Source: Pararhodobacter zhoushanensis (lineage in GTDB: Bacteria > Pseudomonadota > Alphaproteobacteria > Rhodobacterales > Rhodobacteraceae). From it: 64,000 nucleotides of DNA. The notes below the pieces were generated by a model that saw only the letters and a list, made by a program, of their open reading frames with translations, had not been told where the DNA came from and searched no databases. The position numbers were made by a program, and so were the translations under genes. Below are positions 33,698 through 45,055 of this stretch, in pieces; position 1 is the first letter of the stretch; each line of letters begins with the position of its first letter. The DNA lies in NCBI RefSeq assembly GCF_025949695.1, contig NZ_JAPDFL010000001.1, forward strand, positions 1,036,001 to 1,100,000. Direction: 5' to 3'.

Positions 33698-34711
33698 TCA
33701 GCCCTGCAGGCTGGCCTGATCGGTCAGGATCGCACGGGTCAGCGCCGCACGGCTGGACACGCCCGCCTTTTCATAGATGCGGGCCGTCTGATTGCGCACG
33801 GTGGCCGGGGCCAGCCCCAGTCCGCGCGCGATCTCCTTGTGCGTGAAGCCCTCGGCGATCAGCTCGGCGATCTCGCGTTCGCGCGCGGTGAACCGATCCA
33901 CCACCCGGCGTGGCATCAGCCGCAACTCGGTCAGCTGATGACCGTCGTTCAGGGCGGTGGGCGAGGCCAGCACATTGAAGCCACGCGTTTCAAGGAAATC
34001 GTCGAAACTCTCGGCGGGCTCGCGCCGCTTGGGCTCGGCCTGCCAACCCGACCACAGAGTCAGCGCAGCGGCATTGCCCGCGACCGGGCGACCGCGCGCA
34101 TCGACCAGAAGGCGGAAACTGCCATCGCGCGCCCCCTCCTGATCCAGCACGGATTGCATGTGATCCAACGCGCAGGACAGGAACTGCAGCTCGCGTTGCA
34201 CCAGACTGCGCGCGCCCGTGCCGCCGCGATAGGCCGACAGGAACAGCTGCGGGCGCAGCGGGTCCAGCGCGCGGGTGACCACCGACAGCTTGCGCAATCC
34301 GTAGCGGTCGGCCAGCGCGATCATCCCGTCCGACTGGCGAGGCCCGTCGCGGTCGTATTGTGCCCAGAACCGGCCGGTGGATTTCATCGATTGCACATCG
34401 GCGGCCAGCAGGTCGTCGTTGCGGATCTCGCTCCAGAAGGCGACGTAATCGGCGGGCAGATTATGCATGGTGGTGCCGATGATATCGACCTCGGGCGGGA
34501 CGGTATCGGCCCAGCCCAGCCATGCCGCGTCAAAGCCGACGATGCCCGACAACTCCCCCGCCGCCCAGTCCAGCAAAGCGGGGCCATCCATGCCGCGCCG
34601 CACCTCGTGCAATGCGCCGACAAAGCGGCTGAACGCCTGCAGTTCCGTGCCTTCGCGCAAAGGCTGGCCCCCTGGGCAATCGGGTGAACCCACAGCGTAG
34701 AGTGGCCCCAT
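33698..34711 (-). CDS. LuxR-family regulator of the formamidase cluster
   Basis: A 337-residue regulator with a C-terminal GerE/LuxR helix-turn-helix (FTAREREIAELIAEGFTHKEIARGLGLAPATVRNQ broken here after the first 20 residues, ending at IYEKAG). A GAF/autoinducer-like region of unknown ligand forms the N-terminal two thirds. The ATG at 34711 lies 9 bp after the large-subunit stop, so it is in the operon; the frame runs further up inside that gene. In Paracoccus a LuxR-type activator (DmfR) is reported to control dimethylformamidase genes, which fits this location. Confidence 0.82.
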   Translation of the reverse strand: MGPLYAVGSPDCPGGQPLREGTELQAFSRFVGALHEVRRGMDGPALLDWAAGELSGIVGFDAAWLGWADTVPPEVDIIGTTMHNLPADYVAFWSEIRNDDLLAADVQSMKSTGRFWAQYDRDGPRQSDGMIALADRYGLRKLSVVTRALDPLRPQLFLSAYRGGTGARSLVQRELQFLSCALDHMQSVLDQEGARDGSFRLLVDARGRPVAGNAAALTLWSGWQAEPKRREPAESFDDFLETRGFNVLASPTALNDGHQLTELRLMPRRVVDRFTAREREIAELIAEGFTHKEIARGLGLAPATVRNQTARIYEKAGVSSRAALTRAILTDQASLQG

Positions 34712-34719
34712 GCTTTGAG

Positions 34720-37032
34720 TCAACGCCACAGCTTTTCCTCTCCGACAAAGGCCCCGCCCGGCAGCGGGCCGGGACGGGCAAAGGCATCGACCACGTTCTT
34801 CATGAAGCGCGCGACGGGGTTCTGCCCGTGGTTGATCGGCAGTGCCATCGACCACGCGATTGACCCGATGCCGAGGCAAGCGCCGTTGTCGCGGGTGCTG
34901 AAATAGGTGATGTCGGCGCGCACCTGCGGGTCTTGCGTGCCGCCACGGCCGGGGAAGGCATAGGTGATCTCTTCGCTGACCAGCGGGTAGTTGTCGGAAA
35001 ACCCGTCGGCCATGCCCAGAAGCATCGTGTGCGGCGGGGTGCCCAGTGACAGATCGTAGCGGTCGATCTCGATCCCCGCCGCGCCGCCAAGGCCCAGACC
35101 GGCGGTGCCGATCTTCTCCTCGGCGCCGATCCCCTCGAACATCCAGTCCACCCGCTTGTGAAAGCTGTCGGGCATGCGCTCGAAATGGGTGGAATGGTCC
35201 ATGCCCTCAGCCGTAAAGCCGATGCCGACGATCTTCTGCGGGGCCCGCCCGCGCGAGCGCCAGAGGCCCGAGCGTTCGCCGGTCGAGGCCAAGTATCCTT
35301 CGCCCGCCTCGGCCTGCCACGCCCGCGAGCCGGTGTCGAGCTTGCGCACCTCCATGATCTCGGGCTCATTTTCACGCAGGCCCGAAACCCAGTAATACCC
35401 GTTCCCGCCCGCATAGATCACCCGCCCGCCAGTGGTCAGATACGCCTCGGTCGCGTCGAGCATGCGTTCGGAATAATATTCAGGGTGGGTGCAGTTCAGC
35501 ACGACATTGTAGGGCTTCAGCGCCGCTGCGCCCTCGGCGTGCAGGTCGTGGTCGGTCAGGATCTCATAGTCATAGCCCGAACTCTCCAGCCACCAGATCA
35601 GCGACAGATCGGCGGGCAGCGCCCAGGGCATGCCCATCGCCGAACTGCGATAGCGCGGACGGATGTTCAGGATCGGGCGCAAATGGCTGGAATAGCAGCA
35701 GCCCGCGCCGTCCGAGTGGTGGTCATAGGTGGACAGGCCGAATTCGTTCAGCTTGACGAATTCCACATCGCGGGTGGTCAGGATCGGCGTGTGCGCGGTG
35801 ATCGCCTGCGCGATGGGGGCCTCGTAAGCCAGATGCTCGTTGGCATAGGCAAGATAGGTGAAGGTGGACATCAACACCGCGATGGGGGCCTTGGGCGTGG
35901 CGGCGCGCACGAAGAAAGGGACGTGATCCTCGGCCCCGGCGGTGGTCAGGCGCAGGGCATAGACACCGCTTTTCAGACCCTGCGGCACGGTCCATTCGAT
36001 TGTCGGTTCCCAGCGGCAATCGGTCATCGCGTCATCGTGGAAATGCACGCCGCCGTACTGGCCGGGGTTGAGACGATAGCAATCGTCGCGGCCCTGCCAG
36101 TTCCAGCCGGTCATCCCGCGCACCGGGCGGTTGACGCCTTCAGCGTGCAAAGCGTGGGGGCCGGTGTCCACGATCGTGTCGCCGATCCCGGTGTCGGTGT
36201 AGCCCAGCGTGGTGTCCCACAGCGCCACCGCGCCATCCACGGGGAACGCCCCGCCATCCGCAATCGCGTGCAGCGTGTCGTCGTCGAGCACGCGGTTCCA
36301 CAGGCCGGTACGGTCGATCTTGCCGTTATACAGCGTCGAGACGAACCGCCCGCGCCGGTCGTTCCAGTCGCTGGCCGCGGCCCACAGGAAGGGGGCCTCG
36401 GCCACCGCCGCCTTGGGCGTGACGCGCAGGGGCGCATCGGTGATGCTGTTGTAATCATAGGGCACCACCGGTCCCAGATGCCCGTTGTAGCGCCCGACCC
36501 GGCCCAGCTGGATCAGCCGCGCGCGCTTGGTCTTGGCGTCCCAGGTGGCGGCGACGAAGTACCAGGTCCTGGGGATCGCCGGCACTTCGGCGGTGACCTG
36601 ATCGACGTCCTTGCCGTTACCGACCCAGAACTCGACATGCCCCTCAGGATTCAGCCCCAGCGCCCAGCCCTGCGAGCCGGATATGTCCCAGCGCCCCAGC
36701 AAGGTCTGGCGTTGCTTGCCCGGCGCGGTGGGGCAGATGAAGGCGGCGAGGGTGAAGCTGCCCTCGGCCACGTCATGCGTTTCAAAGCCCGGCACGGTGG
36801 CATAAGCGCCTTTCTGGGTGAACTGGCGGCGGACATGCAGCCGCTCGGTCACAGCGCCGGGGATTTCCTCTTCGATGAAACCGGGGCCGTCGGGGTTTTC
36901 GTCGCCATGGATCAGACGGACCAGCATGGCGTCGGCTTCCTCGACCCCCTCGCCCGAGATCATGAAGCGCATCGCCTCGCCGGGTTTGACCGACCACGGG
37001 GTGCAATATCCAAAGATGCGGTGCTTTGCCAT
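34720..37032 (-). CDS. dmfA2: N,N-dimethylformamidase large (beta) subunit family protein
   Basis: A 770-residue protein, the same length class as the large subunit of dimethylformamidase, which hydrolyses N,N-dimethylformamide to dimethylamine and formate. Residues about 90-250 look like a LamG/concanavalin sandwich (SFTLAAFICPT, GWALGLNPEGHVEFWVG). The C-terminal domain carries STFTYLAYANE, LSTYDHHSDGAGC and THPEYYSE. By eye, Tyr396, Tyr436, His516 and Glu518 align with the reported two-tyrosine one-carboxylate iron site of the Paracoccus enzyme. ATG 37032 is 4 bp after the small-subunit domain stop. Real substrate may be another small amide. Confidence 0.85.
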   Translation of the reverse strand: MAKHRIFGYCTPWSVKPGEAMRFMISGEGVEEADAMLVRLIHGDENPDGPGFIEEEIPGAVTERLHVRRQFTQKGAYATVPGFETHDVAEGSFTLAAFICPTAPGKQRQTLLGRWDISGSQGWALGLNPEGHVEFWVGNGKDVDQVTAEVPAIPRTWYFVAATWDAKTKRARLIQLGRVGRYNGHLGPVVPYDYNSITDAPLRVTPKAAVAEAPFLWAAASDWNDRRGRFVSTLYNGKIDRTGLWNRVLDDDTLHAIADGGAFPVDGAVALWDTTLGYTDTGIGDTIVDTGPHALHAEGVNRPVRGMTGWNWQGRDDCYRLNPGQYGGVHFHDDAMTDCRWEPTIEWTVPQGLKSGVYALRLTTAGAEDHVPFFVRAATPKAPIAVLMSTFTYLAYANEHLAYEAPIAQAITAHTPILTTRDVEFVKLNEFGLSTYDHHSDGAGCCYSSHLRPILNIRPRYRSSAMGMPWALPADLSLIWWLESSGYDYEILTDHDLHAEGAAALKPYNVVLNCTHPEYYSERMLDATEAYLTTGGRVIYAGGNGYYWVSGLRENEPEIMEVRKLDTGSRAWQAEAGEGYLASTGERSGLWRSRGRAPQKIVGIGFTAEGMDHSTHFERMPDSFHKRVDWMFEGIGAEEKIGTAGLGLGGAAGIEIDRYDLSLGTPPHTMLLGMADGFSDNYPLVSEEITYAFPGRGGTQDPQVRADITYFSTRDNGACLGIGSIAWSMALPINHGQNPVARFMKNVVDAFARPGPLPGGAFVGEEKLWR

Positions 37033-37036
37033 GGTC

Positions 37037-38566
37037 TCAGCTTTCCAACAGATCGTTGACCCGCAGCAGGAAGACGGCGTGATACGCCTCGTCGCGGGTT
37101 TCATAGACGCGGTCATCGACCACGCGTGGCGGTTTGCCCGGCTCGCCCGACAGCGCCATCACGCTGTAGCGCCACGCGCCCGCGTCGCCCTCTTGCAGGA
37201 TGGCGTATTTGTCGGGCATCTCGCCGCGGCGGAAGTAGTTCAGCACGCGGGCCAGTGCGTCGGAATGCGGCCCCAGCGGCGCTGAATGGTGCTCTTCGAT
37301 CAGCGCGGGCGTGACCATCTCCTTGAGCCGGTCGCGCAACCGGCGGTCAAAGCGGCGATAGGCGATGAGTTGCTTGTCGGCGATCTCGGTGGCTTCTTCG
37401 GGCATGACTTCCCCTCCCTTGCGGGTGCTGGCGGCGCGGCGTTCGGAGCGGATGCGGTGACGCCAGCCGCGGAACTGGCTGCGCACATCGGCCAGACCGT
37501 GATGTGTGGTAAGCGTGACGGCGATCATCACCGCCGCGATCAGGATGATGCGCAAAGGCCCCAGGTCGATCAGCGCGCGGTCGATGACGACGACGATGGC
37601 GGTGCCGATCACCGCGCCCTCGGCCCGGCCCATGCCGCCGATGACGATCATCGCGAACATCAGAAGCAGCTGATCCAGTGAGAACACGTTCAGGCTGATC
37701 GAGCGGTAGAGCATCGCGTAATACGCGCCGACAAACCCCAGCGCGGCGGAGGAGATGAGGAACACGTGCAGCCGCGCGCGGCGATAGTCGATGCCGACGG
37801 CTTCGGAGAAATCCTCATCCTCGCGCGCGGCTTGCAGTTGCAGGCCCAGCCGTTCCGAGTTGATCACCCGGAACAGCAACAGCGCCAGCAACAGCAGTAC
37901 AAAGGCCGTGGCGAAGCCCAGAAGCAGGCCGGGGCGTTGCAGATACCAGTCCTGCGGGATGAACGAGCCGACGTTGTTGATCGACGAGTTCTGCGGCGCC
38001 AGCGCGCGGATCTGGCTGATGGACACCCGGCAAATCTCGGCCACGCCGATGGTGAGCAGGGCATAGTACAGCCCGTCGATGCGGGTCGAGGGCAGGGCGA
38101 GCAGCCCGCCGACCACCAGCCCGACAAAGGCCCCCACCACGAACATCAACGGCCAGGGCACGCCCAGATACACATTCGCGGCGGCAGCGGCATAGCCCGC
38201 AAGCCCGACCACGGCCATCGTCGCCAGCGACAGGATGCCCGCAGCACCAATGATCAGTGTCCAGATCACATTGATCGCGGCGAAGACGCAGAAGACCACG
38301 GCGACCTGCAGCAGCGTGTCGGGCAGCATCGGCGCGGCGCAGGCCAGCCCGCCCAGACCGATCAGCCACCACAAGGGGCGTTTGTCGGCCAGCCGCCGCT
38401 CGCGTTGCAGGGTCTTGGGGTTATAGCCGCCGCGCCATTTCAGCCAGTGACGGCTCAGGCCCGGTACGCGGCCCCGGTGCCAGTCGCGGTTGCCATCGGG
38501 GGCAAGGGTGAATTCATGCCGCCGGTTGCCGACGCGGTGAAAGACAGGAGCGATGGGTTGGGTCAT
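37037..38566 (-). CDS. ABC permease (LivM-like) fused to a dimethylformamidase small-subunit-like domain
   Basis: A 509-residue single open frame. Residues about 60-355 form a LivM-type branched-chain permease (helices with IIGAAGILSLATMAVVGLAGY and VFSLDQLLLMFAMIVIGGMG). A basic linker (RSQFRGWRHRIRSERRAAST) follows. Residues 388-509 resemble the dimethylformamidase small subunit in length and position (EEHHSAPLGPHSD, LNYFRRGEMPDKYA, DEAYHAVFLLRVNDL). An internal ATG at 37405 preceded by GGGAGGGG would make the soluble 122-residue domain alone. The large subunit follows 4 bp later. The fusion could be real, or one missing G at 37411-37414 could have removed a permease stop. Confidence 0.8.
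   Translation of the reverse strand: MTQPIAPVFHRVGNRRHEFTLAPDGNRDWHRGRVPGLSRHWLKWRGGYNPKTLQRERRLADKRPLWWLIGLGGLACAAPMLPDTLLQVAVVFCVFAAINVIWTLIIGAAGILSLATMAVVGLAGYAAAAANVYLGVPWPLMFVVGAFVGLVVGGLLALPSTRIDGLYYALLTIGVAEICRVSISQIRALAPQNSSINNVGSFIPQDWYLQRPGLLLGFATAFVLLLLALLLFRVINSERLGLQLQAAREDEDFSEAVGIDYRRARLHVFLISSAALGFVGAYYAMLYRSISLNVFSLDQLLLMFAMIVIGGMGRAEGAVIGTAIVVVIDRALIDLGPLRIILIAAVMIAVTLTTHHGLADVRSQFRGWRHRIRSERRAASTRKGGEVMPEEATEIADKQLIAYRRFDRRLRDRLKEMVTPALIEEHHSAPLGPHSDALARVLNYFRRGEMPDKYAILQEGDAGAWRYSVMALSGEPGKPPRVVDDRVYETRDEAYHAVFLLRVNDLLES
37403..37418 (-). promoter_or_regulatory. Internal ribosome binding site for a separate small-subunit product
   Basis: GGGAGGGG (37411-37418 on the minus strand) stands 5 bases before an in-frame ATG (37405-37403) exactly at the boundary between the permease linker and the small-subunit-like domain. 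It is stronger than most ribosome sites in the window. Confidence 0.6.
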
Positions 38567-39489
38567 TTGCGCGTCTCGCTCAACAGGCCGCCGATACCGC
38601 GCGGGCGGATGATCAGAACGGTGATGATGAAGCCGAACTGCACCACCAGCACCATCCGCTGGCCAAGGAAGGGGATCGCCCCGGTGACGGCCTCAAGCGT
38701 GCCGACCAGCAGCGCGGCAATCGCCGCACCGGGCACGGAGCCGAGACCGCCCAAGAGCGCGATGATCATGCCCTTGATCAGCGGCATCGCGCCTGCGCCG
38801 GGGCTGACATAGACCGTCTGCGACAACAGCACCGCCGCCGCGCCCGCCATGGCACCTGTCACGGCCACCACCGGCAGCGCCGTGCGCCGGACCGAGATCC
38901 CCGACAGCGCCGCGCCCTCGGCGTTCTGCATCATCGCGCGGATCTCCAGCCCCTTGCGGCTAAGCCGCAGCCACGCCAGCACCACGCCCAGCAGCACCAC
39001 GGTGGCACCGATGGTCATCGCCTGATCATAGCGCAGCGGGATGCCGAACAGGTTCAGGCGTCCAAAGCCGAACACATTGGGCAGTGCCTGTTGCCGGGGT
39101 CCGAACCACCACAGAAGCGCCTGTACCGTGGCCAGGTTGATCGCCAGCGTGACGATCATCCCGCGCACCGGGAAATTGGCCTTGTCGTGGATCGGCAGGA
39201 AACCCAGCAGATAGATCAGCCCGCCAAACAGCGCGCCGACCGTGACGCCGGACAGCAGCAGCACGGTCATTTTCAAGAGCGGCAGGATGGCCCAGCCGTC
39301 AAACACCGCCTCGACCAGCGGCAACAGCGCGTTGCCCAGCACCAGTGTGCCGTATCCGGCCACGGCGAAGGTTGCGCCATGGGCCATGTTCAGCATCCCG
39401 ATCGAGGACCAGAGCAGCGAAATCCCGATGGCCATCAGCGCGTAGATCGCGCTCAGGTTCAGGGCGTAGACGATCAGCGCAGCATCCAT
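38563..39489 (-). CDS. Branched-chain-type ABC transporter permease (LivH-like)
   Basis: A 308-residue permease with about eight membrane helices. The LivH pattern SAIYALMAIGISLLWSSIGM and the cytoplasmic EAA-like loop LRLSRKGLEIRAMMQNAEGA are visible. The ATG (39489) overlaps the stop of the upstream ATPase gene (TGATG); a much longer frame that starts further upstream is an out-of-frame artefact. It pairs with the LivM-like fusion protein. The ligand is unknown; amides are possible given the formamidase genes. Confidence 0.9.
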   Translation of the reverse strand: MDAALIVYALNLSAIYALMAIGISLLWSSIGMLNMAHGATFAVAGYGTLVLGNALLPLVEAVFDGWAILPLLKMTVLLLSGVTVGALFGGLIYLLGFLPIHDKANFPVRGMIVTLAINLATVQALLWWFGPRQQALPNVFGFGRLNLFGIPLRYDQAMTIGATVVLLGVVLAWLRLSRKGLEIRAMMQNAEGAALSGISVRRTALPVVAVTGAMAGAAAVLLSQTVYVSPGAGAMPLIKGMIIALLGGLGSVPGAAIAALLVGTLEAVTGAIPFLGQRMVLVVQFGFIITVLIIRPRGIGGLLSETRK

Positions 39490-40184
39490 CAGCCCAGCTC
39501 CACATGTCCGACATCGCCGCGCAGACGACCGGCGTGCATGCCGATCATCCGGTCGACCTGTCCGTCCAGCAGCGTCACGTTCTGCTCGGCGATGATGATG
39601 GCCCCATCCTTGACGTCGATCTCGCGCAGCGCGGCGATGACGCGCTGGCTGATGACGGGGGCAAGGCCCAGTGACGGCTCGTCGATCAGATACAGCCGCG
39701 CCTCGGTCATCAGGGCGCGGCCCACGCTGACCATGCGCCGCTCGCCGCCCGACAGGGTGCCAACGGTGGTGTTTTCCAGTTTGCGCAGGGGCGGGAACAG
39801 ATCGAAGATCGCCTCGCGCCGCCTGGCCCGTTCGCGCCACGCCTGCTTGGACCACGCCCCGCAATCGAGGTGCTGGCGCACGGTCAGGCCGGGAAAGATC
39901 GCGTCGCCCTGCGGGGTCATTGCCACACCAAGGCGCACGATGCCGGGGGTCTTTCGACCTTCGCCAAGCGAACGCTGGCCGCCGATCTCGACCCCGTCGA
40001 ACAGGATCGAGCCGCGTTGCCAGCCGACCAGATGGGTGATGGCGCGAAACAGCGTGGTCTTGCCGTGGCCGTTCAGGCCGACAATCGCCAGCCGTTCGCC
40101 GCGCTCGACGGTCAGGTTGATCTCGTGCAGCACGCGCAGCGGGCCATAGCCTGCGGACAGGTCGGTGATCTTGAGCAGGGTCAT
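39489..40184 (-). CDS. ABC transporter ATP-binding protein (LivF-like)
   Basis: A 231-residue ATPase with Walker A GLNGHGKTTL, Q-loop, signature TLSGGERRMVSVGRAL and Walker B LYLIDEPSLGLAP, as in LivF of branched-chain amino acid importers. It sits between the second ATPase and LivH and overlaps both. All motifs look functional, in contrast to the partner ATPase just upstream. Confidence 0.92.
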   Translation of the reverse strand: MTLLKITDLSAGYGPLRVLHEINLTVERGERLAIVGLNGHGKTTLFRAITHLVGWQRGSILFDGVEIGGQRSLGEGRKTPGIVRLGVAMTPQGDAIFPGLTVRQHLDCGAWSKQAWRERARRREAIFDLFPPLRKLENTTVGTLSGGERRMVSVGRALMTEARLYLIDEPSLGLAPVISQRVIAALREIDVKDGAIIIAEQNVTLLDGQVDRMIGMHAGRLRGDVGHVELG

Positions 40185-40957
40185 CCCGTCCCCTCGAAAT
40201 AGGCGGCGCGCACGGCGGGGTCGGCAAAGACGCCCTGCGGCGTGCCCTCGGCGATGACTTCGCCCAGATTGAGCACGGTCACGCGGTCCGCCAGTGCTTC
40301 CAGCAGTTCCAGCCGGTGCTCGATGACGATCACCGCCAGATGGTATTCATCGACCAGCGTGCGCAGAAGCAGGTCCAGCTCGTCGATTTCGGTGTTGATC
40401 AGGCCCGAGGCGGGCTCGTCCATCAGCAAGACCTTGGGTCGCCGCATCAGCAGGCAGGCGAGCAGCAGCTTGCGGCGGTCGAAGGTGTCCAGACTGCCCG
40501 CCGGTCGGCTCCACGGCACGGTCAGATTGACCAGCCGGGCGGCCCATTCGGCCTCGTGCCGCGAGCGGAAGGGCAGGTAGGCCATGCGCGCGGCCCGGAA
40601 GGTTTCGCCCACGGTCAGCGCCGAGGGTACGACGGGGCTTTGAAAGGTGCGCGCCAATCCACGGCGCGAGCGGCGCACGATGTCTTGTCTGGTGACATCC
40701 GAGCCATCCAGCACCACGCGGCCCGATTGCGCGACATAGCGGCCCGAGAGCACCTCGAACAACGAGGTCTTGCCCGCGCCGTTGGGACCGATCAGGCCCA
40801 GAACCTCGCCGCGGCTGACGTGCAGGCCGACATCCTTGAGGATCTGACGACCGCCCAGCGCAAGGCTCACGCCTTCGCAGGCGAAGATGGAAGAAGGGGG
40901 GACATGGCGTCTCTTGATCAGAGGACGGGAAGGGGTCGGCGGGTGGCACCGGGCCAC
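40181..40957 (-). CDS. ABC transporter ATP-binding protein (LivG-like) with degenerate signature motif
   Basis: A LivG-type ATPase with Walker A GPNGAGKTSL, Q-loop ARTFQSP, Walker B KVLLMDEPASGL and the H-loop IVIEHRLELL. The ABC signature is replaced by SLDTFDRRKLLLA; no glycine is left where LSGGQ is expected. As written the frame starts at 40957 with an odd 18-residue extension that overlaps a hairpin. One more C in the run at 40896-40901 would put the ATG at 40905 in frame and give MSPPSSIFACEG, a natural start. ATP binding looks intact, hydrolysis less certain. Confidence 0.83.
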   Translation of the reverse strand: MARCHPPTPSRPLIKRRHVPPSSIFACEGVSLALGGRQILKDVGLHVSRGEVLGLIGPNGAGKTSLFEVLSGRYVAQSGRVVLDGSDVTRQDIVRRSRRGLARTFQSPVVPSALTVGETFRAARMAYLPFRSRHEAEWAARLVNLTVPWSRPAGSLDTFDRRKLLLACLLMRRPKVLLMDEPASGLINTEIDELDLLLRTLVDEYHLAVIVIEHRLELLEALADRVTVLNLGEVIAEGTPQGVFADPAVRAAYFEGTG

Positions 40958-40970: not shown

Positions 40971-42212
40971 TCACTGGGCCCAGTGCGGGGTCTGGTACTC
41001 GGCCTCGGCCAGTTCGGCGGGCAGGATGATCGTGTGGTGGTTATCTTGCACCTGATAGATCAGATGCGGGATGCCCTCGGCCAGAACATCGGTTTCCCAC
41101 GGGTAGTTCAGCGGGCGCTGCTGGTCGCGGTCGAAGGTATAGGTGCCCGCAAGGCCCTGATAGCTGAGGTGCCGGATCGCCTGACCCACGGCGTCGAAAT
41201 CGGCAGGGTCGGTGGTGCGCCAGACTTCAGCCAGCATCTGGATCGTGTCATAGCCCGAGGCCGGATACACCTCGCCCATGTTCTCGCCATGCAGCGCCAT
41301 ATAGGCGTCGCGGAAGGCCACGCCCGACTCGGTACGGGGGGTGCCCAGAACGGTGCCCCAGATCATCCCCTCGCCCGCGCCGCGCGCAAGGTCCAGAAAT
41401 TCGGGCTGGCTGGGGCCGTATTGCAGATAGACCAGCGAGTCGGGTGTCGGATCATACGCGAACTGCTGGGCAAAGGCGGCCAGCTCGGCAGCGATCCAGT
41501 GGCTGACAAAGACCACGCCCGCGCCCTCGTCCTTGAGCGCGTTGATCACCGGGGTCCAGTCCTGCACCGGGAACTGGATGTCGGTCACTTCGGCCAGTTC
41601 CCACCGGCCGCCCGATTCCGCGATGGCGCGCTGGGCGGCCTGACTGATCACCTGCGTATAGGCGATCTGTTCCTGCACGATATGGATGCGATGGTTGGCC
41701 GGGGTCCATTGGCCGCTGGCCTCAAGCTGGTCCAGATACCGGACAAAACCGTAGCCGTACCACGTCTCGTCGGGGTCGATCATGAAGATGTTGCGATACC
41801 GCTCGGGGTTCTGGGCGACCAGTTCGACCGACGAAAGCGAGGTGTTGCCGTGCATATAAGGCACGCCGCTGGCGGCGGCGGCATCCATCGCCGGCTGCGG
41901 GATGATCACAAAGGCCGAGGCAATCGCGCTGACGCCGCGCGCGTTCAGGGCCTGAAACGCGCCCACGGTGCCCTCGGGCGAGAGCAGGTCGATATCGACC
42001 ACCTCGGCGCGCAGCATGCGCCCGTTGACACCGCCCTCGGCGTTGATCGCGTCAATCGCCATCTGCGCGCCGTTCAGCCAGTCGGCATGGTCGGCAACGC
42101 CGACGACGCTGGATTGTGCGGTGGGGATGCCGATCAGGATGTCTTGGGCGAAGGCGGGTGTGGCGAGGGTAAGGGCCGCCGCGGCGGCGTATCCGGCCAG
42201 TCTGGTGGTCAT
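40971..42212 (-). CDS. Branched-chain-type ABC transporter substrate-binding protein
   Basis: A 413-residue periplasmic receptor of the LivK/amide-binding class (type I fold). It has a Sec signal peptide (about residues 1-22, ending PAFA) and then QDILIGIPTAQSSVVGVADHADWLNGAQMA. It contains the family pattern GVNGRMLRAEVVDIDL. It is the first gene of the operon receptor - ATPase - ATPase - permease - permease/formamidase-alpha - formamidase-beta. It resembles AmiC/FmdD-like amide receptors in context only; the ligand cannot be read from the sequence. Confidence 0.9.
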   Translation of the reverse strand: MTTRLAGYAAAAALTLATPAFAQDILIGIPTAQSSVVGVADHADWLNGAQMAIDAINAEGGVNGRMLRAEVVDIDLLSPEGTVGAFQALNARGVSAIASAFVIIPQPAMDAAAASGVPYMHGNTSLSSVELVAQNPERYRNIFMIDPDETWYGYGFVRYLDQLEASGQWTPANHRIHIVQEQIAYTQVISQAAQRAIAESGGRWELAEVTDIQFPVQDWTPVINALKDEGAGVVFVSHWIAAELAAFAQQFAYDPTPDSLVYLQYGPSQPEFLDLARGAGEGMIWGTVLGTPRTESGVAFRDAYMALHGENMGEVYPASGYDTIQMLAEVWRTTDPADFDAVGQAIRHLSYQGLAGTYTFDRDQQRPLNYPWETDVLAEGIPHLIYQVQDNHHTIILPAELAEAEYQTPHWAQ

Positions 42213-42390
42213 GGTCTGTCTCCCGGTTGTTTTTGTTATTTAACCGTTACGAGACCATGATTCCGGGGGTGGCCTATGATGCAAATGCACCCAATCGGAC
42301 GGTTTGAGCGTGTAAAAAAGGGAGGACCGCTGCCGCGGCGCGTGTTTGATCCGTTTTTGCGACCAAAGCACGCCAGTTGTGCAGGCGATG

Positions 42391-43401
42391 CGCGATTGTT
42401 CGGTACGCCGGGCACCGCTATCGTCAGCCCCAGGAGGAGCCGCCATTTCACGCCATGCTCACCATATCGACCGGGTTCTGGAATCGGTCAGCTCGGGCTC
42501 TGCCGCTGCGCGGTCGGCGCTGGCCGCGTCGTGGCAGCGCTCGGTGCAGCACCACGGGCTCGACCCGGCCGAGCATCGCGAAGCCCGCAGGGTCGGCACC
42601 GATGCACTGACCGCCCGCAGGGCGCAGCTCGACAGCTTCCTGACCGTCTCGCGCCCCAAGCTGGACCAGCTCTTCGGCCTTGTCGGCAGCTCGGGCTGCG
42701 GCGTGCTGTTGACCGACGCGGACGGGATCGTGCTGGAGCAGCGCTGTTCGGACTCGGACGCGGCGGTGTTCCAAAGCTGGGGGCTGGCGCTGGGCGCGGA
42801 CTGGAGCGAGGCGCACGAGGGCACCAACGGCATCGGCACCTGTCTGGCCGAGAAAACGCAGGTGATCATCCACCGCGACGAGCATTTCTTCGCCCGCAAC
42901 ATCGGCATGAGCTGCATGGACGCGCCGATCTTTGGCCCTGATGGCCGGGTGCTGGCGGCGCTCGATGTGTCTTCGGCCCGTGCGGATCAGACGGCGGGCT
43001 ACAACCGGCTGATCGCGGCGATGGTGACGCAGACCGCGCGGGCGATCGAGGCGGATTATTTTCGCGCGTCGTATCCCGGCGCGCGCATCGTCGTGGCCGG
43101 TGCCGAGGACGCGGATGCGGCGATGCTGATCGCTGTCGATGCCGATGATCTGGTGATCGGTGCCACGCGCGGCGCGCGGCGGGCGTTCCGCCTGGAACTC
43201 AGCGGCGCGCTGAAACCGCGCCCCGCGTCGGACCTGTTTGGCCGTGAAGATGGCCCGACCGGATTTGAGCGCGCCGAGCGGGCGGCGGTCATCCGGGCGC
43301 TGAGCCGTGCGCAGGGTAATGTGACCGAGGCGGCGCGCGCGCTGGGCGTTGGCCGCGCCACGCTCTATCGGCGGATGAAACGCCTGAGCATCGGCGAATA
43401 A
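42391..43401 (+). CDS. GAF-Fis regulator (AcoR-like without the ATPase domain)
   Basis: A 336-residue protein from ATG 42391 with a GAF domain (about SGCGVLLTDADGIVLEQR to ALDVSSARADQTAGYNR) and a C-terminal Fis-type helix-turn-helix (AQGNVTEAARALGVGRATLYRRM). The sigma-54 AAA+ domain that normally sits between them in AcoR is absent. An AGGAGGAG sequence at 42432-42439 lies 5 bases before an in-frame ATT (42445) that would give the N-terminus ISRHAHHIDRVLESV. That ATT may be the real start. It precedes an aldehyde dehydrogenase, its likely target. Confidence 0.8.
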   Translation, partial: RDCSVRRAPLSSAPGGAAISRHAHHIDRVLESVSSGSAAARSALAASWQRSVQHHGLDPAEHREARRVGTDALTARRAQLDSFLTVSRPKLDQLFGLVGSSGCGVLLTDADGIVLEQRCSDSDAAVFQSWGLALGADWSEAHEGTNGIGTCLAEKTQVIIHRDEHFFARNIGMSCMDAPIFGPDGRVLAALDVSSARADQTAGYNRLIAAMVTQTARAIEADYFRASYPGARIVVAGAEDADAAMLIAVDADDLVIGATRGARRAFRLELSGALKPRPASDLFGREDGPTGFERAERAAVIRALSRAQGNVTEAARALGVGRATLYRRMKRLSIGE

Positions 43402-43413
43402 CCGGCGCGAAGT

Positions 43414-43429
43414 GTCTCAGTTCTGAGAC
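43414..43429. promoter_or_regulatory. Inverted repeat upstream of the aldehyde dehydrogenase
   Basis: GTCTCAG-TT-CTGAGAC is a perfect 7-bp inverted repeat 106 bp before the aldehyde dehydrogenase ATG and 13 bp after the GAF-Fis gene. It is a candidate site for that regulator. Confidence 0.5.
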
Positions 43430-43534
43430 GCCTCGCCGCTGTGATCCCCTGCGCCCCCCTGACGACTCAGCCCCCCTGCTGACAGCCTGTGTGCAGTCCG
43501 GGCGGGGGAGCCCGGTGTTTCAGGAGGAAATACC

Positions 43535-45055
43535 ATGAACGAGATGACTCAGGCCGAAAGCCGCTTCGCGTCGCCTTTCAGATCGCGCTACGACAACTTC
43601 ATCGGCGGCACGTTCGTGGCCCCGGTCAACGGGCGCTATTTCGACAACGTGACGCCGATCAGCGGGGCCGTGGTCTGCGAAGTCGCCCGCTCGGATGCCG
43701 CCGATATCGCGCTGGCGCTGGATGCGGCGCATGCGGCGAAAGAGAGCTGGGGCAAGACCTCGGCCACCGAGCGTTCGAACATCCTGCTCAAGATCGCCGA
43801 CCGGATCGAGGAAAACCTCGCCCTGATCGCCACCGCCGAGACGTGGGATAACGGCAAGCCAATCCGCGAAACCATGGCGGCTGACATTCCGCTGTCAGTC
43901 GATCACTTCCGCTATTTCGCCGGTGTCCTGCGCAGTCAGGAAGGCACCATGTCGGAAATCGACGCCGATACCGTGGCCTATCATTTTCACGAGCCGCTGG
44001 GCGTTGTCGGCCAGATCATCCCGTGGAACTTCTCGATCCTGATGGCGGCGTGGAAACTGGCCCCGGCGCTGGCGGCAGGCAACTGCATCGTCATGAAACC
44101 GGCTGAGCAGACGCCCGCCGCAATCATGGTGCTGGTCGAGCTGATCGCGGATCTGCTGCCCGCCGGTGTGCTCAACATCGTCAACGGTTTCGGCGCCGAG
44201 GCTGGCGACGCGCTGGCGCGGTCGGGGCGGATCGCCAAGATCGCCTTTACCGGTTCGACCGCAACGGGCCGCAAGATCATGGAGGCCGCGACGGTCAACC
44301 TGATCCCGGTCACGCTGGAACTGGGCGGCAAATCGCCCAACATCTTCTTCTCGGACGTGATGGCGCAGGATGATGCGTTTCTGGACAAGGCGGTCGAGGG
44401 CTTCGTGCTGTTCGCCTTCAATCAGGGCGAGGTCTGCACCAGCCCCTCGCGCGCGCTGATCCAGGAGGATATTTACGAGGAATTCATCGCCCGCGCCATT
44501 GCCCGGGTGAAGGCGATCAAGCAGGGCGACCCGCGCCTGCCCGACACGATGGTCGGCGCGCAGGCCAGCCGGGCGCAGCAGGACAAGATCTTGTCCTATC
44601 TGCAGATCGGGGTCGAGGAAGGGGCCGAGGTTCTGGCCGGCGGCGCTGCGGCATCGTTCGGGGGTGAGCTGGCGAACGGGTTCTATATCCAGCCGACCAT
44701 CCTGAAGGGCCACAACAAGATGCGGGTGTTCCAGGAGGAAATCTTTGGCCCGGTCGTGTCGGTGACCACCTTCAAGGACGAGGCCGAGGCGCTGGCGATT
44801 GCCAATGACACGATGTACGGGCTGGGGGCAGGGGTCTGGACCCGCGACGGCACCCGCGCTTACCGTTTTGGCCGTGCCATCGAGGCCGGGCGCGTCTGGG
44901 TGAACAACTACCACGCCTATCCGGCGCATGCGGCCTTTGGCGGCTACAAACAGTCGGGCATCGGGCGTGAGACGCACAAGATGATGCTGGACCACTACCA
45001 GCAGACCAAGAACATGCTGGTCAGCTATAGCCCCAACAAGCTGGGCTTCTTCTGA
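43535..45055 (+). CDS. NAD-dependent aldehyde dehydrogenase, acetaldehyde type (ExaC/AldB-like)
   Basis: A 506-residue aldehyde dehydrogenase. It has the cofactor motif PWNFSILM (163-170), Glu262 in LELGGKSPN and the catalytic Cys301 in [12 protein letters not shown]. The latter sequence and the long PSRAL tail match the ExaC/AldB acetaldehyde dehydrogenase group. AGGAGG lies just before ATG 43535. It follows the GAF-Fis regulator with an inverted repeat between them. Many ExaC genes are paired with AcoR/EcoR-type regulators, so this pairing supports an alcohol or acetaldehyde oxidation role. Confidence 0.9.

Follow-up and report, generated by a model that had tools for sequence, protein, structure and literature searches.

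Dimethylformamidase (DMFase; DmfA1/DmfA2) of Paracoccus, with the structure PDB 6LVB, is the closest described relative of the enzyme considered here, and both of its subunits are homologous to the subunits encoded at the locus under study. The available part of the published account (PMC4543880) describes the small subunits of Paracoccus DMFases as separate genes and dmfA1-dmfA2 of P. aminophilus as an operon activated by the LuxR-type regulator DmfR; it also describes a dmfA1-dmfA2 homologue on a chromid of P. aminophilus without a link to DMF use, and this part makes no mention of ABC transporter genes alongside dmfA1-dmfA2. For the transport genes of the locus, the nearest counterparts are the LIV/HAAT importers (LivKGFHM, with urea UrtABCDE as relatives), in which one operon likewise encodes a binding protein, a pair of ATPases, and a pair of permeases. 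A third comparison is offered by genes with two products: according to the available parts of two reports, Cas11b is made by internal in-frame translation within cas8b (PMC11899642) and RpnS by internal in-frame translation within RpnL (PMC10327210), such that a longer protein also yields its C-terminal domain as a product of its own.

In the current study, a locus was analyzed in a window of 64,000 nucleotides (the whole stretch of DNA that was analyzed). It comprises the following features.

33698-34879, minus strand: LuxR-family regulator, downstream, start uncertain (PF00196 GerE); as listed, it overlaps the large-subunit ORF
34720-37032, minus strand: DMFase-like large (catalytic) subunit, 770 aa (match to 6lvb_A, the DMFase large subunit, E 3.5e-181; PF20254; Fe-ligand residues kept)
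37037-38566, minus strand: livM-dmfA1-like fusion gene, 509 aa, 56.4 kDa (open frame; PF02653; C-terminal match to 6lvb_B)
37037-37405, minus strand: DMFase small-subunit domain, 122 aa plus stop (6lvb_B match); probable free product of 14.1 kDa
37403-37420, minus strand: putative internal ribosome site and start, AAG GGA GGG GAA GTC ATG (codon conservation in related genes)
37406-38566, minus strand: LivM-type permease part, roughly residues 1-387, ending in a basic linker (BPD_transp_2)
38563-39498, minus strand: LivH-type permease, start approximate (inside the listed ORF 38563-40227)
39489-40184, minus strand: LivF-type ATPase (PF00005)
40181-40957, minus strand: LivG-type ATPase (PF00005 and PF12399)
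40971-42212, minus strand: periplasmic substrate-binding protein (PF13458)

The order of small and large subunits and the LuxR-family regulator are alike here and in P. aminophilus, as far as the available part of PMC4543880 describes it; however, the small subunit here is joined to a permease. Conversely, LivM of LIV/HAAT importers lacks the enzyme-subunit domain that is present on the LivM of the window. Matches of the window operon to the NCBIfam LivM, UrtB, UrtC, and binding-protein models were far below cut-off (for the permeases, 58.5 vs 366 for LivM and 49.7 vs 296.2 for UrtC). Two products are predicted for the fusion, as for the genes encoding Cas11b and RpnS in the parts of those reports available, but here a membrane transporter would be the long product and an enzyme subunit the predicted short one. 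No report of a DMFase-permease fusion was found in the literature searched, whose coverage leaves out most subscription journals; within that literature each half is known, and the joining of the two with a conserved internal start appears not to have been published.

The fusion frame runs for 509 codons with zero internal stops and ends in a stop codon at 37037-37039, leaving a 4-bp gap before the large-subunit ATG that begins at 37032. Residues 85-350 correspond to Pfam BPD_transp_2, and the last 122 residues (388-509; 37040-37405) match the DMFase small subunit with E-values of 6.4e-10 (single sequence) and 5.9e-17 (six-row profile). A chance match of the C-terminal domain was ruled out by these E-values, and the domain can be assigned by homology to the DMFase small-subunit type. 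An earlier sequence-only reading of this DNA had proposed that one 509-codon frame joins a LivM-type permease to a DMFase small-subunit homologue placed 4 bp before the large subunit, and both proposals were borne out; moreover, the masses calculated for the fusion and the free domain are close to the 55 and 14 kDa that it had expected. When the whole genome was searched, one small-subunit domain and one large subunit were detected and a separate small-subunit gene was not found, so in this organism the small subunit can come only from the fusion frame. The topology of membrane proteins follows the positive-inside rule. Because of this rule, the basic linker that follows the last hydrophobic stretch of the permease part (ending near residue 361) fits a cytoplasmic tail. 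In the large subunit, the Fe ligands Tyr399, Tyr440, and Glu521 and the catalytic residues His519 and Asn547 are present in the window and in 72/72 aligned sequences, namely all 57 from fused loci (scored at 600 bits or more) and 15 others. By contrast with DMFase, Tyr replaces the pocket residue Phe693 in the window and in 45/57 fused-locus large subunits.

Short G runs occur at the domain border, and the small subunits of Paracoccus are separate genes in the available part of PMC4543880; a missing base could thus have merged two genes, and a missing G that had hidden a permease stop was the alternative raised in the sequence-only reading. This explanation was refuted by the relatives of the gene. 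Among 507 homologues, the permease domain and PF26354 were precomputed in 120/120 of the matches listed, and a second search with the C-terminal part only again returned both domains in 120/120 matches listed. A scan of named genomes for the small-subunit domain confirmed 94 loci, the best 80 of which were analyzed: in 64 the domain and the permease share one open frame, with a stop between them in none (0/64), and 14 have separate small-subunit genes. The other two are L072, a fusion with an in-frame stop, and L084, which meets a contig end 93 nt upstream. The Pararhodobacter zhoushanensis gene from the named genomes, a close relative, has the same open fusion and is 95.3% identical to the window gene over the last 1500 nt. 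With the same frame found open in all of these, a frameshift artefact was ruled out, and the probability that we leave to sequencing error is negligible. The fusion is confirmed as real and conserved, beyond chance.

Selection and descent were also examined. When the window gene was compared with L044, L045, and L046, pN was lower than pS in the permease, linker, and small-subunit parts, indicating purifying selection across all three. Of the plasmid records, 26/26 matched across 80% or more of the query, and those with a feature under the match annotate it as a permease of a branched-chain amino acid ABC transporter. When 63 fused permeases were placed in one tree with five LivM paralogues from the genome of the window, the fused ones formed a single group (support 100), with a warning on long outgroup branches; within this sample, the fusion appears to have arisen once. 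Among 100 related genomes, 8 (counting that of the window) gave a small-subunit match, which in 5 lay in a long fusion frame. Among 385 genomes of the class, 24 had a small-subunit match and only 2 (again counting that of the window) the fusion at E 1e-60, no more than three candidates being scored in each genome. Given how few genomes carry it in both censuses, the distribution of the fusion is patchy. As a separate observation, the in-frame stop of L072 (5785-6150), a metagenome-derived fusion, falls at codon 12 of the small domain, as in a decayed gene or an error.

Upstream of the fusion lie the genes for the binding protein, the two ATPases, and LivH, and the end of the LivH gene is overlapped by the fusion frame. 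The order SBP-LivG-LivF-LivH-LivM.S-(S)-large was complete in 48/64 fused loci, the remaining 16 being cut by contig ends, and a LuxR-family-like gene is also found downstream in many relatives. There are 14 unfused loci in all. In the 11 that have at least 3.3 kb upstream, none of LivH, LivF, the binding protein, and LivM was detected, a lone ATPase-like match being present in two of them (L117 and L123); in the other three (L078, L118, and L122), the sequence breaks off within 0.6 kb upstream. Shared pathway genes were sought beside the operon in 68 loci, where no family besides the operon genes occurred in more than 20 and no clue to the substrate emerged; some of the neighbour-gene clusters proved to be antisense shadow frames. 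In the window itself, two genes at 42346-45055 lie divergent from the transporter operon, one for a regulator resembling DhaR/AcoR (matches below cut-off) and one for an ExaC-type acetaldehyde dehydrogenase. On Rhizobium plasmid pMK-2 (L124, 10274-13258), the operon adjoins S-formylglutathione hydrolase, glutathione-formaldehyde synthase, and a formaldehyde-sensitive repressor; these formaldehyde-detoxification genes are a weak hint of a methylated substrate. On plasmid pMDW2 of Aminobacter sp. MDW-2 (L126, 7577-12317), one fusion is followed by a tandem pair of large-subunit genes, both annotated as dimethylformamidase beta subunit family.

The sequence-only reading had also predicted that an internal start at the domain border yields a soluble copy of the small subunit. 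The border contains an internal GGGAGGGG-ATG, a Shine-Dalgarno-like stretch and start codon that are kept in most proteobacterial fusions. At the protein level, the border peptide K-G-G-E-x-M (in DNA, AAR GGN GGN GAR NNN ATG) is near invariant, with Met at the start position in 144/146 proteins listed and Leu in 2. To analyze the codons, 65 non-redundant fused genes were sorted by traits other than the Gly codon into four groups: 7 with a second small-subunit gene, 5 with the ATG one codon up, 11 actinobacterial, and the remaining 42. In these 42 genes, the first Gly of K-G-G-E is GGA (25) or GGG (17) without exception, when at 23 other conserved Gly columns of the same genes the share of GGA plus GGG was at most 71% (median 30%). 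Moreover, a tree of 41 of the 42 genes gave zero purine/pyrimidine changes at the first-Gly column despite 6 third-base changes, compared with 2-15 at the 23 other columns. The codon at the start position is ATG in 35 genes, GTG in 4, and TTG in 3. It has the best anti-Shine-Dalgarno score among the in-frame start codons of its gene in 37/42; another scores better in L054, L064, L081, L082, and L083. Also, compared with windows across its own gene, the border mRNA shows less structure than a median 77% of them. Taken gene by gene, the evidence is weaker: K-G-G-E by itself already scores fairly against the anti-Shine-Dalgarno sequence, and a synonymous-recoding test reached p<0.05 in only 13/42 genes, with p 0.34 for the gene of the window. 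The comparison with other conserved Gly columns and the tree counts took the place of this test.

A conserved ribosome site and start codon at the border are thus present in most proteobacterial members, and absent from one proteobacterial clade and from actinobacteria. That clade comprises 7 genes, all of which keep K-G-G-E with GGC as the first Gly codon (7/7) and carry CTG or CTT at the start position. In 7/7, a second, separate small-subunit gene lies between the fusion and the large subunit. The mRNA at the border shows more structure here than the bulk of the gene (median 12%). Among three plasmid loci that were read later, GGC, CTG, and the second gene occur together in Ensifer L125; in the Rhizobium and Aminobacter loci, the ATG lies one codon up and a second gene is absent. 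Rhodobacter sp. SGA-6-6 carries one operon of each kind in a single genome, with an internal start in one and a second gene in the other (L060 and L085). Two genes without ATG, GTG, or TTG (L110 and L125) keep fair ribosome pairing (-12.8 and -11.0), and 3/5 of the shifted-ATG genes score only -8.1. An independent-pairs test of start loss against the second gene was not significant, with only 2-3 pairs; the swap between start and second gene is a single evolutionary event. The predicted soluble copy is supported by codon choice, start-codon identity, and weak local mRNA structure, and also by this sister clade, which lacks the start and has a separate gene.

We consider it probable that a permanent fusion of LivM with the small subunit of a DMFase-like iron amidohydrolase has two translation starts and supplies both a permease-tethered and a free small subunit. 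After full-length translation, the permease would carry the small-subunit domain at its cytoplasmic tail, in a position to dock the large catalytic subunit at the importer, and a second entry of ribosomes at the domain border would yield the free small subunit. Ribosomes ending at the fusion stop may reinitiate at the large-subunit ATG 4 bp further along, and free small and large subunits would in this way be made together as soluble enzyme. One permease provides one tethered small subunit; free copies from the internal start could complete the alpha2beta2 unit and would allow enzyme to exceed importers. We infer the use of the internal start, the docking, and the coupling of the two activities; the imported compound is presumably the substrate of the enzyme.

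Actinobacterial fusions differ from this pattern. At 12 loci (11 non-redundant), K-G-G-E and a ribosome site at the border were absent, and an adjacent second small-subunit gene was not found; two of these fusions have TTG at the border position, with weak scores. Whole-genome searches of 11 actinobacterial genomes gave one match in 9, two fused copies in 1, and an extra 195-aa frame in 1, the query being an actinobacterial domain, with which distant copies could be missed. With no border signal and single matches, the tethered form must be enough in actinobacteria and a free copy unneeded. These genomes, 9 of 11 without another small-subunit match, argue for an alternative in which just the fusion is made throughout, all enzyme sits at the importer, and K-G-G-E with its purine codons reflects linker function or history; the retention of K-G-G-E in 7/7 genes of the clade without the start also implies that the peptide is of some value itself. 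However, selection on the peptide leaves unexplained why the first Gly is GGA or GGG in 42/42 genes but GGC in 7/7 of the clade without the start, and it leaves the exclusive use of ATG, GTG, and TTG at the start position unexplained as well. We therefore regard a tether without a free subunit as unlikely.

The ribosome site of the large subunit was also compared, with kinship among genes ignored in every mean that follows. The mean was -4.4 for internal-start genes (n=38) versus a stronger -9.4 in actinobacteria (n=12); it was -5.0 for shifted-ATG genes (n=5), -5.4 for the CTG clade (n=7), and -7.6 for unfused loci (n=16, including L072 and L084). A weak large-subunit site in the same genes that strongly keep the internal signal fits the reading with two products and would also suit the opposite alternative, namely that the fusion is a tolerated read-through of a lost stop, that the internal start makes the working subunit, and that the tail is idle or serves as a coupling aid raising large-subunit translation. 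Yet the fused domain is under purifying selection even in the clade with a second copy (profile scores of 174-188 bits for the fused vs 84-105 for the free copy), it is kept in actinobacteria without a free copy, and no stop has appeared between the domains in the 64 fused named loci. A free subunit as the only working product thus seems to us decidedly unlikely.

Returning to the fusion with two products, a more specific version can be offered tentatively, as possible yet doubtful. In DMFase, the small subunit borders the channel to the active site. Held at the inner mouth of the importer, the small subunit might hand the imported amide straight to the large-subunit dimer, and the internal start might set the ratio of tethered to soluble enzyme, a ratio that would be re-set in lineages by start loss (actinobacteria) or by a second gene. 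Uptake of an amide may be tied to its hydrolysis, as the sequence-only reading had suggested. If true, an ABC importer and the enzyme acting on its cargo would be linked in a genetically fixed way, with a hidden second product that annotation misses. The related genes would represent a natural experiment, in which one peptide is found with a retained start, a shifted start, a gene in its place, or no start.

Several further observations were made in the course of the scans. The gene end of L103 (titled Oceanobacillus sp. HTM 045) is identical to that of L013, from a genome of the window's family, and its label looks wrong; the organism label of L117 (titled Klebsiella pneumoniae MAG) also looks wrong. 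At the actinobacterial locus L111, a faint small-domain match was found within the large-subunit frame. Small-subunit-like matches in L029, L032, L034, and L041 lie within frames of 409-863 aa, which may be other fusions or mere open frames. Lastly, 4-6 matches resembling the small subunit occur in each of the genomes G140, G348, and G426; most are separate short genes, which hints at an expansion of the amidohydrolase family.
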